Source of the DNA: Alphaproteobacteria bacterium
Lineage (GTDB): Bacteria > Pseudomonadota > Alphaproteobacteria > UBA8366 > Aestuariispiraceae
Direction of reading: 5' to 3'
Length of the DNA stretch: 64,000 nucleotides
NCBI GenBank assembly: GCA_033344895.1
Contig: JAWPMN010000001.1
Coordinates: forward strand, 620,001 to 684,000
The translations under genes and the position numbers were made by a program. This document shows positions 3,416-61,385 of the stretch, one piece after another (the first letter of the stretch is position 1; each line of letters starts with the position of its first letter). The notes below the pieces were generated by a model that saw only the letters and a list, made by a program, of their open reading frames with translations, searched no databases and was not told the origin of the DNA.

Positions 3416-4408
3416 ATGCAAGAAATCCTGATCCTGAACGAAAACGAACTGCGCCAGGCGATCACGCTGGACATGACGGCGGTCGATCTGGTCGCCGAGG
3501 CCTTCGCGAAACTGTCCGACGGTTCGGTCATCATGCCGCCGATCCTGCGCATGGACATGGAGGACAGAAACGGAGAGGTCGACGTGAAGACCGCCTATGT
3601 CCCGGGACTGGACGGCTTTGCTATCAAGGTCAGCCCGGGTTTCTTCGACAACCCGAAAAAGGGTCTGTCGACGACCAGCGGGCTCATGGTCGTGCATGAT
3701 GCCAAGACCGGCTTCGTGCAGGCGGTCCTGCTGGACAACGGCTATCTGACAGATGTGCGCACCGCAGCCGCCGGTGCGGTCGCCGCGCGATGCCTGTCCG
3801 TCAAGAACGCCAGCCGCGCCGCGGTCATCGGGACCGGGCTGCAGGCACGATTGCAGATCCAGGCGCTGACCCTGGTCCGGCCGATCGAAACCGTAACCGT
3901 CTGGGGCCGGGACCCCGAAAAGGCCGCCGCCTGCGCGCAGGATATCGAATGGTCGACTTCCCTGAAGACCAGGATTGCCGGTTCTGTGGAGGAGGCCCTG
4001 GCCGACGCGCAGATTGCCGTGACGACGACCCCCAGCCGCACACCGCTGATCGACGAGTCGATGCTGCATCCCGGCCTGCATATCACCGCCATGGGGTCGG
4101 ATGCGGAGCATAAGAACGAGCTGGCCCCGAACGTCATTGCCGAGGCCGATCTCTTCGTTTGCGACAAGCATGAACAATCCGCGCGGCTGGGCGAACTGCA
4201 CCATGCCGTGGGCGCCGGTGTCGTGCCGGAAGACATGCCGGTCACGGAACTGGGCCATGTTGTCGCCGGCACCCATCCGGGACGTCAGAGCGACGATGCC
4301 GTGACCGTCTGCGACCTGACCGGAACCGGCGCGCAGGACACGGCGATCGCCACCTATGCCCTGTCCGTCGCTCTGGAAAACAGCTTCGGTACCCGCATCA
4401 CCAACTGA
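3416..4408 (+). CDS. eutC: Ornithine cyclodeaminase family protein, EutC-like
   Basis: 330 residues. It has the mu-crystallin/ornithine cyclodeaminase layout: an N-terminal substrate domain with AIKVSPGFFDNP, the signature LLDNGYLTDVRTAAAGA, and a Rossmann domain starting AVIGTGLQARLQIQA. In hydroxyectoine degradation this protein follows EutB. In the beta-hydroxyaspartate cycle its relative BhcD reduces iminosuccinate to aspartate. The pair here could therefore dehydrate a hydroxy amino acid and reduce the imine product before it hydrolyses; this is inference. An RBS-like AAGGGG precedes the ATG, and spacing to the dehydratase is 11 bases, so the two are almost certainly co-transcribed. Confidence 0.82.
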   Translation: MQEILILNENELRQAITLDMTAVDLVAEAFAKLSDGSVIMPPILRMDMEDRNGEVDVKTAYVPGLDGFAIKVSPGFFDNPKKGLSTTSGLMVVHDAKTGFVQAVLLDNGYLTDVRTAAAGAVAARCLSVKNASRAAVIGTGLQARLQIQALTLVRPIETVTVWGRDPEKAAACAQDIEWSTSLKTRIAGSVEEALADAQIAVTTTPSRTPLIDESMLHPGLHITAMGSDAEHKNELAPNVIAEADLFVCDKHEQSARLGELHHAVGAGVVPEDMPVTELGHVVAGTHPGRQSDDAVTVCDLTGTGAQDTAIATYALSVALENSFGTRITN

Positions 4409-4486
4409 ACCAGCCGGCCCCGCGCCTTTCTCGCCACGGCTTGTGCCGCGGACGATGTGAATTTCGTCCGCCAATTCCGCATGCAG

Positions 4487-4511
4487 GTGTGGACATATTT
4501 ATAATTCACAC
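4487..4511 (+). promoter_or_regulatory. Imperfect GTGTG/TTCACAC dyad overlapping the promoter
   Basis: GTGTGGA at 4487-4493 and TTCACAC at 4505-4511 form an inverted repeat with one mismatch. TTCACAC is the same sequence found in the arms of the perfect palindrome 22 bases downstream. It covers the -35 element and half of the spacer, which is a plausible repressor or activator half of a two-site operator. Confidence 0.45.
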
Positions 4512-4518
4512 TTATATT
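4490..4518 (+). promoter_or_regulatory. Promoter of the siroheme/sulfite reductase operon
   Basis: TGGACA at 4490-4495 and TATATT at 4513-4518 are separated by exactly 17 bases in an AT-rich island that contrasts with the GC-rich surroundings. This fits a sigma-70 type promoter about 65 bases before the CysG-like start. A perfect TATAAT also occurs at 4500-4505. Identification is by eye only. Confidence 0.55.
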
Positions 4519-4532
4519 ACGTCTAAATGATT

Positions 4533-4556
4533 TTTCACACATTTAATTGTGTGAAA
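4533..4556 (+). promoter_or_regulatory. 24-bp perfect palindrome, candidate operator of the siroheme operon
   Basis: TTTCACACA at 4533-4541 and its exact reverse complement TGTGTGAAA at 4548-4556 flank the six-base centre TTTAAT. It lies about 15-38 bases downstream of the predicted -10 element and 27 bases before the first start codon, a position typical of repressor binding. No regulator gene is adjacent, so the cognate protein is unknown; a regulator of sulfur assimilation is the natural guess. Confidence 0.65.
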
Positions 4557-4582
4557 TCGGCAAGCGAGGCGAGAGCAATATC

Positions 4583-5557
4583 ATGGACGTGTTTCCGTCC
4601 TTCTGGCGTCTGGAGAACAGAAGCGTGATCGTGGTCGGCGGCGCCGATGCGGCGATCCGCAAACTGCGCCTGCTCGCCCGAACGCCGGCCCGCCTCACCG
4701 TATTCTCCGACCACCCGGCGGCGGAAATCGCCGCCCTGGAGCGAAACGGGCGTATCGTCCTGAACCGACGCACCCTGACCGTGGCCGACATCGACGATGA
4801 CGCCGCCTTTGCGGTCGTCGCCACAGAGGATGATGCTGTCGCCGAAGACGCTGTCACCCTGTTGCGCGCGGCCCGTGTCCCGGTGAACGCCGTCGATCGG
4901 ACCGAACTCTGCGATTTCCTGATCCCGTCCATCGTCGACCGCAACCCGGTCGTGATCGGGATCGCAACCGGGGGCGCCGCGCCGATCCTGGCCCGGAATG
5001 TCCGTGAGACGCTGGAAGCGATCCTGCCCGCGCGCCTGGGCAATCTGGCCGCCTTCGCCCGGCGTTTCCGGGGTGCGGTCTCTGCAACACTGGGTGACGG
5101 CAAGGCCCGCAAGGCCTTCTGGGAAAGCTTCTTCGCCGGGCCGGTTGCCCAGCAGGTACTGGACGGTGACGAGGCCGCGGCCAATGACGCCATGCTGACG
5201 GTCCTGAACCGGCGCGCGGCCGCCGAACGCCCGGCTGGCAGCGTGACACTGATCGAAGTCGATGCGGTCGAGACGGACCTGCTCAGCCTACGCGCGCTGC
5301 GGCGGATGCAGCGCGCCGACATCGTGCTGCATCGCCCCGACGCCGCCCCGGCGCTGATGGAACTGACTCGCCGCGACGCGGACCGTGCCGAATGGACCCG
5401 CGCCGACAGCGTCCTTGACCTTGCGGCCCGTCATGCCGGCGTCGGCCTGTCCGTGGTCGTTCTGGGCCCGCCCGGCAGCCTGCCCGAAACCCGTTACGAA
5501 ACCCTGCGCCATGGCGCGGCCCCGGATGCCCGTCCGGCCGCCCTGGCCGCCGTCTGA
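4583..5557 (+). CDS. cysG: Siroheme synthase-like protein: precorrin-2 dehydrogenase/ferrochelatase with a remnant methyltransferase segment
   Basis: 324 residues from the ATG at 4583. Residues 1-200 match the N-terminal half of CysG (Met8p-like): a Rossmann start SVIVVGGADAAIRKLRLL, the catalytic Asp region VNAVDRTELCDF, then LIPSIVDRNPVVIGIATGGAAPILAR and a dimerisation helix. This part oxidises precorrin-2 and inserts iron. From about residue 220 there is only a short echo of the uroporphyrinogen methyltransferase domain (DLLSLRALRRMQRADIVLHR), lacking the usual GxGPGDPxLLT loop. SUMT activity is therefore not expected here and must come from elsewhere in the genome. It is the first gene of the cysI operon and supplies siroheme for it. 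Confidence 0.85.
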   Translation: MDVFPSFWRLENRSVIVVGGADAAIRKLRLLARTPARLTVFSDHPAAEIAALERNGRIVLNRRTLTVADIDDDAAFAVVATEDDAVAEDAVTLLRAARVPVNAVDRTELCDFLIPSIVDRNPVVIGIATGGAAPILARNVRETLEAILPARLGNLAAFARRFRGAVSATLGDGKARKAFWESFFAGPVAQQVLDGDEAAANDAMLTVLNRRAAAERPAGSVTLIEVDAVETDLLSLRALRRMQRADIVLHRPDAAPALMELTRRDADRAEWTRADSVLDLAARHAGVGLSVVVLGPPGSLPETRYETLRHGAAPDARPAALAAV

Positions 5558-5577: not shown

Positions 5578-5898
5578 ATGAGCCTGAAAGCCCTGAAAGC
5601 CAACCGCCTGTCCGACGGCGAAGCCGTCTGGCTGACCGATGCCGGCGGCTGGTCCGACCGCGTCTCCGCCGCCCGGACCGAAGGCGATGCCGACGGCCAT
5701 GCCGCGTTGGAGAAGATCGGTGCCCAGGCCACGGCCGACGCCCTGGTCGTCGATGCCGAACTGATCGACGTCGAAATCCGGGACGGCGCGCCGGTCCCGA
5801 CCAAACTGAAGGAGCGCATTCGTGCGCTGGGGCCGACCGTGCGCCTCGATCTCGGCAAGCAGGCCGAGCCGAAATCCCGTCTGCAAGAGGTTGCGTAA
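5578..5898 (+). CDS. DUF2849 domain-containing protein
   Basis: 106 residues, cytoplasmic, no membrane segment. It opens with MSLKALKANRLSDGEAVWLTD, the typical start of DUF2849, a small alphaproteobacterial family nearly always found directly before the sulfite/nitrite reductase gene. Its function is not established; a role in siroheme or iron-sulfur handling for CysI is an inference from gene order. It lies 20 bases after the siroheme gene (GGAGGA just before the ATG) and 3 bases before cysI, so it belongs to the same transcript. Confidence 0.8.
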   Translation: MSLKALKANRLSDGEAVWLTDAGGWSDRVSAARTEGDADGHAALEKIGAQATADALVVDAELIDVEIRDGAPVPTKLKERIRALGPTVRLDLGKQAEPKSRLQEVA

Positions 5899-5901
5899 GC
5901 C

Positions 5902-7572
5902 ATGTACCGTTACGACGAATTCGACGCTCAGCTGGTCCAGGAACGGGTCGCCCAGTTCCGCGGTCAGGTCGCCCGCCGGGTCGCCGGCGAACTGACCGAA
6001 GACGAATTCAAGCCGCTGCGCCTGATGAACGGCCTCTATCTGCAGATTCATGCCTATATGCTGCGCGTCGCCATTCCCTATGGCACGTTCAATGCCACGC
6101 AGATGCGCAAGCTGGCCCATATCGCGCGGGTCTACGACAAGGGCTACGGCCATTTCACCACGCGCCAGAACATTCAGTACAACTGGATCACGCTGGACCA
6201 GACCCCGGACATCCTGGAGGAACTGGCCACTGTCGAGATGCACGCCATCCAGACCTCGGGCAACTGCATTCGGAACACGACCGCCGACCCCTATGCCGGC
6301 GCCGCCGTGGACGAGCATGAAGACCCGCGCATCTGGGCGGAAATCATCCGGCAGTGGTCCAGCTTCCACCCGGAATTCAGCTTCCTGCCGCGCAAGTTCA
6401 AGATCGCCGTGACCGGTGCCGAGAACGACCGTGCCGCCGTGCGCGTGCACGATATCGGCCTGGTCATTGTGCGCAACGATGCGGGCGAAGTCGGCTTCAA
6501 GGTGATGGTCGGCGGCGGTCAGGGCCGCACCCCGATGATCGCAAAGACGATCCGGGAATTCGTGCCGAAGGACAATCTGCTGTCCTATCTGGAGGCCGTG
6601 CTGCGCGTCTACAACATGCTCGGCCGCCGCGACAACAAGTACAAGGCACGGATCAAGATCCTGGTCCACGAAGTCGGCGTCGAGGAAGTGACCCGCCTGG
6701 TCGAGGCCGAGTGGGAAGCGATGAAGAAGGAAACCTCTGTCGACCTGCCGGCCGAGGAGCGCGACCGCATTGCCGCCTATTTCGCGCCGCCCGCCTTCGA
6801 GACGCTGGCCGACACCGACACCGGCTTCGAAGCCCGCAAGTTCGAGGACCGCGACTTCCGTCACTGGGTGCGTACCAATGTGAAGCCGCACCGTCAGCCA
6901 GGCTATGCCATCGTCGACATCTCGCTCAAGCCGACCGGCGGCATTCCCGGCGACATCACCGCCGACCAGATGGACGCGGTCGCGGATATCGCCGATGCCT
7001 ATGCCGTCGACAGCGAAATCCGCGCGACCTATCAGCAGAACCTGGTTCTGCCGCATGTCCGCCTGCAGGACCTGCCCGCCGTCTATGACCGTCTGGTCGC
7101 GGCCGATCTAGCAACCGGCAATATCGGTCTGGCCGGCGACATCATCGCCTGCCCCGGGCTGGACTACTGCAACCTGGCCAACGCCCGGTCGATCCCGGTT
7201 TCCCAGGCAATCTCCGAACGGTTCGCGGACCTGAACCGCCAGTACGATATCGGCCCGCTGGAGATCAAGATTTCCGGCTGCATCAATGCCTGCGGCCATC
7301 ACCATGTCGGCCATATCGGCATTCTGGGCGTCGACCGGAAGGGCGAGGAGCATTACCAGCTCACGCTGGGCGGGCGCGCCGACGATGCCGCCGCCATCGG
7401 CAAGATCACCGGCCCCGGCTTCAGCGCCGACGGCATTGTCGACGCGGTGGAAACCGTCGTCGAAACCTATCTGACGCTGCGCCGCGATCCCGCGGAACGC
7501 TTCATCGACACGCTTGAACGCCTGGGACCCCAGCCGTTCAAGGAGCGCCTGTACGGCGCCAAGGCCGCCTGA
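5902..7572 (+). CDS. cysI: Nitrite/sulfite reductase hemoprotein (siroheme, 4Fe-4S)
   Basis: 556 residues, the usual length of the alphaproteobacterial CysI/NirA-like enzyme. It contains two ferredoxin-like half domains and two siroheme domains. TTRQNIQYNW binds siroheme, and the 4Fe-4S cluster ligands are Cys417 and Cys423 (CPGLDYC) plus Cys460 and Cys464 (CINAC). It catalyses six-electron reduction of sulfite to sulfide, or of nitrite to ammonium. Operon context with DUF2849 and DUF934 favours assimilatory sulfite reduction. The electron donor is not encoded nearby. The start at 5902 is only 3 bases after the preceding stop, consistent with translational coupling. Confidence 0.92.
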   Translation: MYRYDEFDAQLVQERVAQFRGQVARRVAGELTEDEFKPLRLMNGLYLQIHAYMLRVAIPYGTFNATQMRKLAHIARVYDKGYGHFTTRQNIQYNWITLDQTPDILEELATVEMHAIQTSGNCIRNTTADPYAGAAVDEHEDPRIWAEIIRQWSSFHPEFSFLPRKFKIAVTGAENDRAAVRVHDIGLVIVRNDAGEVGFKVMVGGGQGRTPMIAKTIREFVPKDNLLSYLEAVLRVYNMLGRRDNKYKARIKILVHEVGVEEVTRLVEAEWEAMKKETSVDLPAEERDRIAAYFAPPAFETLADTDTGFEARKFEDRDFRHWVRTNVKPHRQPGYAIVDISLKPTGGIPGDITADQMDAVADIADAYAVDSEIRATYQQNLVLPHVRLQDLPAVYDRLVAADLATGNIGLAGDIIACPGLDYCNLANARSIPVSQAISERFADLNRQYDIGPLEIKISGCINACGHHHVGHIGILGVDRKGEEHYQLTLGGRADDAAAIGKITGPGFSADGIVDAVETVVETYLTLRRDPAERFIDTLERLGPQPFKERLYGAKAA

Positions 7573-7591: not shown

Positions 7592-8104
7592 ATGGCTCTT
7601 ATCAAGAACGGTACCCAGGTTTCGGATCAGTGGATCACCGCCGACGACGATACGCCGGTGCAGGCCGACATTCCGACCATCGTCAGCTACAAGCGCTTCC
7701 TGGAAGAACGCGAAACCCTGGTGCGCAGCCGTGCCGAACTGGGCGTGAAAGTGGCCCCGGGCGAGGATGTCACCGCGCTGGAACGCGATCTGCCACGCCT
7801 TCAGGTCATCGCCCTGGACTTCCCCAAATTCACCGATGGCCGGTCTTACAGCGCCGCCCGCATTCTGCGCCAGCGCCTCGGCTTCGAGGGCGAAATCCGC
7901 GCCACGGGCGAGGTTCTGCGGGATCAGTACCTGTTCATGCAGCGTGCCGGCTTCGACAGTTTCGAGGTCAGGGACGGCGTCGAGGCCCGGCAGTGGCTGG
8001 ATGCGGTGCGGGAATTCTCGCACTATTACCAGCCTGCCCCGAACGGCACATCCGCCGTCTGGGCCCTGCGCCATGCCGGACTGGCCGCTGCGGCGGCGGA
8101 GTGA
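7592..8104 (+). CDS. DUF934 domain-containing protein
   Basis: 170 residues from the ATG at 7592, preceded by GGAAGGAGA. The body contains LQVIALDFPKFTDGRSYSAARILRQRLGFEGEIRATGEVLRDQ (given here only as landmarks DFPKFTDGRSYS and RATGEVLRDQ), diagnostic of DUF934. The family accompanies cysI and cysH in sulfate assimilation operons across proteobacteria; biochemical function is unproven. The expected phosphoadenylylsulfate reductase gene cysH is not next to it in this genome. It is the last gene of the operon; the copper operon promoter starts about 40 bases downstream. Confidence 0.85.
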   Translation: MALIKNGTQVSDQWITADDDTPVQADIPTIVSYKRFLEERETLVRSRAELGVKVAPGEDVTALERDLPRLQVIALDFPKFTDGRSYSAARILRQRLGFEGEIRATGEVLRDQYLFMQRAGFDSFEVRDGVEARQWLDAVREFSHYYQPAPNGTSAVWALRHAGLAAAAAE

Positions 8105-13261: not shown

Positions 13262-13837
13262 ATGGATGATCGCATGAGACGTTCGAAATCGGAGAAGGCA
13301 CAGAGCCGGGAAGAGATCGTGAATGCCGCGGCGCGCCTGTTCCGGGAGAAAGGCATCGGCGAGACCAGTGTATCCGACGTCATGGGTTCGGCGGGCCTGA
13401 CCCATGGCGGCTTCTATCGCCATTTCTCGTCCAAGGAAGACCTCGCCGCCACCGCGATCCGCGATGCTTTCCGGTCCGGCCTGCGCGTTTTCACGGAAGC
13501 CTCAGACGCCCCCGAGGAGGAGGCCCGCGCCTATGTCGACCAGTACCTCTCCCATGAGCATCTGACCGACCCCGGCGACGGATGCCCGATTCCGACCATG
13601 GCAGCGGAGGCGGGGCGGGGCCCCGATTCCTGGCGGGCGTCACTGGCAGCCGGGGCGGAAGAGGCGATCGCGAAGTTGTCCGTCGGCCTGCCCGGGGGAC
13701 GTCCCGCGGCGCTGGAGTTGCTCGCGCTTCTGGTTGGGACGGTTCTGCTGACCCGCGGTACCGGCGACACGCCTCTCGCCGGGGAAGTCCTCGACACCGG
13801 CCGCGCCGCTTCGGACCGATTGCTGTCGGGGGATTGA
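13262..13837 (+). CDS. TetR/AcrR family transcriptional regulator
   Basis: 191 residues. The N-terminal helix-turn-helix spans about residues 15-60: REEIVNAAARLFREKGIGETSVSDVM followed by the recognition segment THGGFYRHFSSKEDLAA (landmarks AARLFREKGIG and GGFYRHFSSKED). This is the TetR subgroup with GGFY instead of the more common GTLY and a C-terminal ligand pocket containing GCPIPTMAAEAGR. It is transcribed away from the methyltransferase and membrane protein genes and probably represses them and itself through the inverted repeat between them. No good Shine-Dalgarno is seen; Met5 is a possible alternative start. Confidence 0.88.
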   Translation: MDDRMRRSKSEKAQSREEIVNAAARLFREKGIGETSVSDVMGSAGLTHGGFYRHFSSKEDLAATAIRDAFRSGLRVFTEASDAPEEEARAYVDQYLSHEHLTDPGDGCPIPTMAAEAGRGPDSWRASLAAGAEEAIAKLSVGLPGGRPAALELLALLVGTVLLTRGTGDTPLAGEVLDTGRAASDRLLSGD

Positions 13838-16833: not shown

Positions 16834-16857
16834 CTGCTGACAACAGGTTGTCAGCAG
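16834..16857 (+). promoter_or_regulatory. 24-bp perfect palindromic operator between the WYL regulator and its divergent operon
   Basis: CTGCTGACAAC at 16834-16844 and its exact reverse complement at 16847-16857 flank a two-base centre AG. A plus-strand -10 TATAGT lies at 16864-16869 and a minus-strand TATTCT at 16820-16825, both placing their -35 regions at the centre of the palindrome. One bound regulator dimer could therefore control both directions. Confidence 0.75.
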
Positions 16858-61112: not shown

Positions 61113-61385
61113 GTGAAGCAGGAACAGGCCGAAACCGTGGCATTGCAGGCGCTGGCCTATATCGCGGCGGATGAAGATCGGATGGATCGGTTCGTCGCGC
61201 TGTCGGGTCTGGGGCCCGACGATCTGAAAAGCCGGATCGCAGACCCGGCTTTTCTGGGGGGCGTTCTGGACCATCTGCTGGGGCACGAGCCCGATCTGAT
61301 GGCATTCGCCGAGGAAGCGGATATCGACCCCGTATCGGTGCAGCGCGCCCGCGCCGCCCTGCCCGGGGTCAATCCCGACTGGTGA
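61113..61385 (+). CDS. DUF3572 family protein
   Basis: 90 residues from the GTG at 61113 (GCGGGGG upstream). Helical pattern AETVALQALAYIAADEDRMDRFVALSGLGPDDLKSRIADPAFLGGVLDHLLGHEPDLMAFAEEA (landmarks FVALSGLGPDDL and FLGGVLDHLL) is the DUF3572 signature, an alphaproteobacterial family of unknown function. It is soluble with no signal. Its stop at 61385 directly abuts the stop of the convergent 62-residue gene at 61386. Confidence 0.85.
   Translation: MKQEQAETVALQALAYIAADEDRMDRFVALSGLGPDDLKSRIADPAFLGGVLDHLLGHEPDLMAFAEEADIDPVSVQRARAALPGVNPDW

Follow-up and report, generated by a model that had tools for sequence, protein, structure and literature searches.

A conserved putative operator-promoter with TTCACAC half-sites in front of a cysG–sulfite reductase operon

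What reads the DNA in front of a cysG–sulfite reductase operon when one short half-site, TTCACAC, recurs there in two symmetrical arrangements? We analysed a 64-kb stretch of an alphaproteobacterial genome (hereafter, the window), and in particular its positions 4487-4556. An earlier note on this DNA had described a perfect 24-bp palindrome downstream of a TGGACA/TATATT promoter with a 17-base spacer, and a second GTGTG/TTCACAC dyad overlapping the −35; the coordinates of the palindrome were borne out by script and by reading, and the second dyad is present as well, in an everted arrangement (Table 1). The palindrome, TTTCACACATTTAATTGTGTGAAA, can be written as TTTCACACA-N6-TGTGTGAAA, its two 9-bp arms matching perfectly across a gap of 6 bases. 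In the everted dyad (site 1), GTGTGGA overlaps the −35 element and TTCACAC lies inside the promoter spacer; the palindrome (site 2) would follow a cysG transcription start that probably lies near 4525. The arms of the palindrome are 67% A+T and the next bases are TCGGCAAG; site 2 does not fit an intrinsic terminator, with its G+C-rich stem and subsequent T run. CRP and FNR recognize the consensus TGTGA-N6-TCACA, and the palindrome has the reversed polarity, TCACAC..GTGTGA.

Table 1. Positions of the promoter, the putative operator sites and the operon genes in the window, with the surveyed loci that carry a SAM-II-like core
Feature	Position	Strand	Details
Site 1, everted dyad GTGTGGA-N11-TTCACAC	4487..4511	+	spans the −35 and the spacer; GTGTGGA 4487-4493, TTCACAC 4505-4511
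Core promoter TGGACA-N17-TATATT	4490..4518	+	−35 TGGACA 4490-4495, −10 TATATT 4513-4518; 17-base spacer
Site 2, perfect inverted dyad TTTCACAC-N8-GTGTGAAA	4533..4556	.	roughly +8 to +31, counted from the inferred start of transcription
cysG-like siroheme synthase with its precorrin-2 dehydrogenase/ferrochelatase part and a degenerate remnant of the C-terminal methyltransferase	4583..5557	+	PF13241, PF10414; TIGR01470
DUF2849 protein	5578..5898	+	PF11011, 81.9 bits
Nitrite/sulfite reductase hemoprotein, inferred assimilatory sulfite reductase	5902..7572	+	PF01077, PF03460
DUF934 protein, encoded at the end of the operon	7592..8104	+	PF06073, 133 bits
SAM-II-like core loci	upstream of operon		L110, L116, L142, L145, L156, L208, L209, L213, L221, L229, L232, L233, L256, L264

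The hemoprotein gene gave no NCBIfam equivalog above its cut-off, and we infer that it encodes a sulfite reductase because of its setting between DUF2849 and DUF934 genes and because a cysH-like gene stands behind the operon in relatives, where it follows within the flank (by eye; the L259 protein is confirmed by Pfam). The protein start of cysG is taken as ATG 4583, in line with the starts of five genus orthologues; TTG 4547, offered as the start by a mechanical list of open reading frames, lies inside the palindrome and was set aside in favor of it. The C-terminal methyltransferase domain of CysG (5237-5554) looks eroded in all six members of the genus, the GAGPGDPDLLT-like motif of L010 being replaced, and no Pfam domain was found over this part of the window's protein. 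A second CysG-like protein, 35% identical, is encoded elsewhere in the same genome (G000) at C1:516963-517793 (L018), and the 260 bp before its gene contain no TTCACAC dyad.

The window's genome, G000, is a single 4.64-Mb contig, and its genus is represented by six genomes that include G000 itself and G013, Pacificispira spongiicola KN72. The promoter and the dyad are retained in all six, and also in two further genera, in G001 (Aestuariispira insulae) and G002. When these eight sequences are aligned, TGGACA, the ACAC of the spacer, TATAT and the ACAC/GTGT of the palindrome are invariant, and the palindrome's arms change mostly symmetrically, as in TTTCACAC/GTGTGAAA, AATCACAC/GTGTGATT and TTAACAC/GTGTTAA. 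The arms in G013, AACACAC/GTGTGTT, have only 6 bases between them, and consequently the spacing of the dyad is not fixed; among relatives, the gap between half-sites ranges from 4 to 10 bp. Loss of the palindrome from orthologous operons had been named beforehand as the finding that would speak against the proposal, and we found it kept at cysG in all six genomes of the genus and, across the family, in 8 of 14. Elsewhere in the family, G007 keeps the promoter half-sites with the palindrome missing, G003, G004, G005 and G008 show no clear copy of the dyad at cysG, and DUF2849 was not found in G006. At the level of the order, the full palindrome occurs within two mismatches in 3 of 43 genomes; G039 (L021) has a site with two mismatches. 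A separate inverted repeat at 4449-4470, CGGACGA-N8-TCGTCCG, contains TGTGAAT, has no T run behind it and is kept in G011, the sister genome within the genus; by eye it is absent from the other members of the genus. The record CP051228.1 (L189), titled 'Mesoflavibacter sp. isolate ih5', carries the sequence of G011, which the genome search placed in the genus of the window. Mesoflavibacter is a Bacteroidetes name, and the record is probably mislabelled.

The shared half-site had been attributed to a dedicated regulator of sulfur assimilation, with a search of the genome and its relatives for the palindrome at other sulfur promoters as the proposed check. That proposal stood, with one amendment: half-sites in relaxed or everted form precede cysH and, in some genomes, cysD, but the exact palindrome is unique in G000 and is not repeated at those promoters. 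An exact whole-genome scan for GTGTGGAN{8,13}TCACAC returned two places in G000 and two in G011, in both cases cysG and cysH. G013 also has two, one at cysH and the other in GC-rich sequence within a 792-nt open frame; the reversed control returned none in these three genomes. The elements before cysH are GTGTGGA-N9-ATCACAC in G000 and G011 and GTGTGGA-N9-TTCACAC in G013, with looser everted forms in G009, G010 and G012; the cysH half-sites lie at the inferred −50 to −30 and overlap the inferred −35. By eye, no clear dyad precedes cysH in Aestuariispira or G002. An inverted dyad precedes cysD in three of the six genus members (TTTACAC-N7-GTGTGGA in G000, TTCACAC-N7-GTGTGGA in G011 and CAACAC-N6-GTGTTG in G010), and no clear one was seen by eye before cysD in G009, G012 and G013, nor in G002, G004, G007 and G008. 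Aestuariispira has a cysD dyad, AATAACAC-N8-GTGTTTAT, that matches TAACAC-N8-GTGTTA before its own cysG, so that AACAC-N8-GTGTT precedes both genes.

Scans with looser patterns set the bounds of this putative regulon. TCACACN{6,9}GTGTG occurs at three places in G011 (cysG, cysD and the start of a 218-residue frame) and at six in G000, five of them within long open frames, and its reversed control at one place in each genome. The cysD dyad of G011 sits inside a 1305-nt stop-to-stop frame of the opposite strand, where a divergent reading frame begins. The third G011 place (L327, ~1500-1520), TCACAC-TTAAAA-AGTGTG, opens a 218-residue frame that has no Pfam match and follows an alaS-like gene; among the matches listed, it has no counterpart in G000. 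For TTCACAC-N8-GTGTGAA with two mismatches there was no excess over the reversed control in six genomes (2-6 forward and 2-8 control sites per genome), and any regulon must therefore be limited in size or have degenerate sites. A site with one mismatch at G000:240998 was rejected as an operator, lying by eye within a ferredoxin-reductase-like coding frame, as were four other matches to the looser pattern that fall inside long open frames. Judged by the motifs at these promoters, the idea of a regulon under a dedicated sulfur-assimilation regulator is supported.

We surveyed 140 regions upstream of the operon from many alphaproteobacteria, G000 not among them. Of the 131 DUF2849-bearing genomes 40 supplied sequence, as did 20 of the 30 order-level ones. 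Contig ends truncate several of the stretches, most severely L100 and L113, and a script estimated where the operon starts from gene calls, crudely so for loci marked '?'. ACAC-N6-10-GTGT was found in 17 of the 140 regions, which are not independent because some genomes appear twice (for example L118/L214, L104/L201 and L106/L194), against a shuffled mean of 0.6 and a maximum of 3 of 140 in 30 shuffles. Eight of the 17 dyad loci come from the genus, Aestuariispira (counted twice) or G002, and Kiloniella and Roseospira also contribute. Records named Pelagibius or close to it (L195, L200, L205, L206, L218, L219) show, by eye, TGGACAA with TCACCCTA..GTGAA at about the same distance.

A different element takes the same place in part of the survey. 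A SAM-II-like core, ATTTGA..GCTAAA, precedes cysG or DUF2849 in 14 of the 140 regions (Table 1), and the ACAC/GTGT dyad is in none of these 14; L213 has a single TTCACAC. At nine of the loci (L142, L208, L110, L116, L145, L156, L209, L229 and L264) the best SAM_alpha score per locus was 26.4 to 42.5 bits, two of the nine passing the gathering score of 36. Two neighboring copies occur in L142, L116 and L110, and two copies about 1.1 kb apart in L264. Other lineages have elements similar to the SAM-II and SAM_alpha riboswitches (RF01726, RF00521) in front of this operon, but they are RNA elements, they do not coincide with the dyad, and positions 4300-4700 of the window have no match to RF00521 or RF01726 at E up to 5. 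The available part of a paper on Sinorhizobium SAM-II treats metA and metZ and there makes no mention of cysG, cysI or siroheme (PMC9373788). Either the dyad or the SAM-II-like core is found on the operon, depending on lineage, which suggests a possible natural swap of protein and RNA feedback; the operon may thus be a natural case in which protein-based and RNA-based feedback replace one another on one pathway. Cobalamin riboswitches also occur within 5 kb of cysG, at L117 4510-4706 (−) and L214 318-539 (+), in G002 and Aestuariispira.

We propose, with a probability of roughly 70%, that 4487-4556 serves the cysG-DUF2849-sulfite reductase-DUF934 operon as its operator and promoter and that a predicted homodimeric repressor of sulfate assimilation acts there at TTCACAC half-sites. 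The motif is common to other sulfur-assimilation promoters of the genus, and the element is therefore most likely the docking site of a candidate sulfur-sensing repressor. The homodimeric DNA-binding protein would recognize TTCACAC half-sites and the variants TCCACAC, TTTACAC, ATCACAC and AACAC, and would occupy site 1, over the −35/−10 region, and site 2, just past the transcription start. Under sulfur sufficiency, the bound protein would block RNA polymerase at both sites; when sulfur is short it would leave the DNA, and cysG-sulfite reductase, cysH and cysDN would be made together. Binding of a protein at the half-sites is itself a prediction. Repression is suggested by the position of the half-sites over the core promoter, and, as the −35, the spacer and the earliest transcribed positions all fall under them, steric repression would explain the arrangement most simply; sulfur status is the presumed signal because of the genes targeted. 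The varying spacing means that the candidate protein must tolerate different arrangements, as Lrp and LysR proteins are known to do, and a gap that ranges from 4 to 10 bp is unusual and counts against one rigid dimer.

The element appears to be a genuine and conserved operator that belongs to a sulfate-assimilation regulon, ordinary in kind and new in detail; our literature search found no published description of it and no named regulator that fits. A broader proposal falls slightly short of an even chance: that a new sulfur-status repressor in Rhodospirillales and their kin acts on cysG-sulfite reductase, cysH and cysDN through inverted and everted TTCACAC half-sites with elastic spacing, and that evolution has swapped it, on this operon in other lineages, with a riboswitch of the SAM-II type. 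The putative operator is useful because it is directly testable: DNA of known sequence could serve as bait, and three promoters as targets, in isolating the sulfate-assimilation regulator of this group.

Two explanations dispense with a DNA-binding protein. The palindrome might be a chance product of an AT-rich promoter, and indeed a perfect 9-bp inverted repeat with a spacer of at most 8 arose in 33 of 5000 dinucleotide shuffles of 4409-4582. By itself the palindrome is only mildly unusual for AT-rich DNA; the improbable part is the cluster of identical half-sites, since at least four half-sites of TTCACAC/GTGTGAA/GTGTGGA appeared in none of 5000 such shuffles. TTCACAC has four copies in the window, counting both strands, and three of them are in the 4487-4556 region. 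With up to three mismatches allowed, the palindrome has one site in the window (0 of 100 shuffles) and one in the whole of G000. Conservation across three genera and the restriction of the everted dyad in G000 to two places, cysG and cysH, further argue against chance, which we regard as extremely improbable. (Other strong inverted repeats of the window lie at 16834-16857 and 61226-61254, one with 11-bp arms and a spacer of 2, the other terminator-like with 10-bp arms.) The palindrome might instead act as a hairpin in the 5′ mRNA, controlling stability or translation, with no protein site at all. It falls in the presumed 5′ untranslated region, and the 24-mer can form an eight-pair stem (−10.3 kcal/mol, z −5.0; nine pairs in a longer context). 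This stem persists although its letters change and its loop varies in length, as an RNA hairpin would allow. However, every perfect palindrome folds likewise, no Rfam family was found above cut-off, and the ACAC/GTGT letters are conserved beyond what pairing alone would need. The same half-site also recurs within the spacer of the promoter and, upstream of cysH, in the inferred −50 to −30 region, both presumably untranscribed, and because these half-sites should lie outside the transcript we favor a protein and consider a hairpin function quite unlikely.

For the binding protein that we favor, several candidates were weighed. That the regulator is not encoded nearby, as the earlier note held, agrees with what we see: by eye, no regulator gene was recognized beside cysG, cysH or cysD in G000, and the nearest one in the first 14 kb of the window, over which open reading frames were read, is a TetR gene at 13262-13837. 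Nor is one adjacent, by eye, to cysH or cysD in G001 and G002; in G002, cysH has a GntR/MocR-like gene some 5 kb away. No regulator of the TTCACAC operator was found by these searches. One candidate is a CyuR/DecR-like protein of the Lrp/AsnC family, a cysteine sensor encoded at G000:C1:3393755-3394204. Proteins of the Lrp type are able to occupy numerous sites at loose spacing, and clear orthologues of this one at 44-49% identity, judged by that identity rather than by a tree, are present in 11 of 14 family genomes. Related genes stand divergent from the operon, about 66-235 bp away, at 7 of the 140 surveyed loci, with an eighth 2.4 kb away, and the intergenic region of L101 holds TGTGGAAAAATATTCTACA, a TGTGGA..TTCTACA element somewhat like the everted dyad. 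Yet the dyad is not always accompanied by an orthologue: the best-scoring Lrp proteins of the dyad-bearing G001 and G002 are only 34% and 30% identical (G006, at 35%, is the third family genome lacking a clear one). Most DecR-adjacent loci, moreover, show by eye GAAATAT..TTTC-like elements without TTCACAC, and the candidate's own promoter lacks TTCACAC. The E. coli CyuR sites, so far as the available text describes them, are alike in being imperfect palindromes, about 23 bp long, within a promoter connected with cysteine, but their consensus, GAAwAAATTGTxGxxATTTsyCC, differs in having no TTCACAC/GTGTGAA arms (PMC11408624), and none of its arms could be seen by eye at 4487-4556. The motif and the two dyad-bearing genomes without a clear orthologue disfavor a DecR-like binder, which we hold to be very unlikely.

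The Rrf2 family has five matches in G000, and the three of these loci that were read contain none of four half-site words; in G009 and G010 (L290, L291) the start codon of one Rrf2 gene does coincide with a GTGTGAA, which we take to be coding sequence. No Rrf2 or LysR protein could be linked to the operator. SqrR, a relative of the sulfane-sulfur repressors SoxR and sHdrR, binds ATTC-N8-GAAT, which is absent from the operator region. In Hyphomicrobium, SoxR and sHdrR (ArsR family) resemble the predicted protein as alphaproteobacterial repressors of sulfur genes whose loss changes cysDN transcripts; according to the portion of the report available, these transcripts go down, not up, without SoxR/sHdrR, and direct repression therefore does not fit (PMC12423496). 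More plausible than a DecR-like protein, though still unlikely, is a LysR-type regulator, CysB-like or LsrB-like, acting as an activator or dual regulator. The CysB protein of enteric bacteria uses half-sites in convergent and divergent arrangement, and its regulon is likewise made of separate sulfate-assimilation promoters with loosely conserved inverted and everted half-sites; it differs in its letters, and here the sites cover the core promoter and the inferred transcript start. The LysR box is T-N11-A, with odd symmetry; the inverted dyad at site 2 is, by reading, even-centered, which may speak against such a protein. The available part of a study of Agrobacterium reports that loss of the LysR proteins LsrB and OxyR alters a peroxide response that includes cysI, cysN, cysD and cysH (PMC11975290). 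By eye, the upstream regions of the loci taken as LysR-adjacent show other letters. A LysR-like protein cluster does recur, again by eye, in the operon flanks at 16 of the 140 loci, as in L222, where a LysR-like gene, GcvA-like by eye, occupies 3801-4739 (−) and belongs to this cluster found in other alphaproteobacterial operon flanks.
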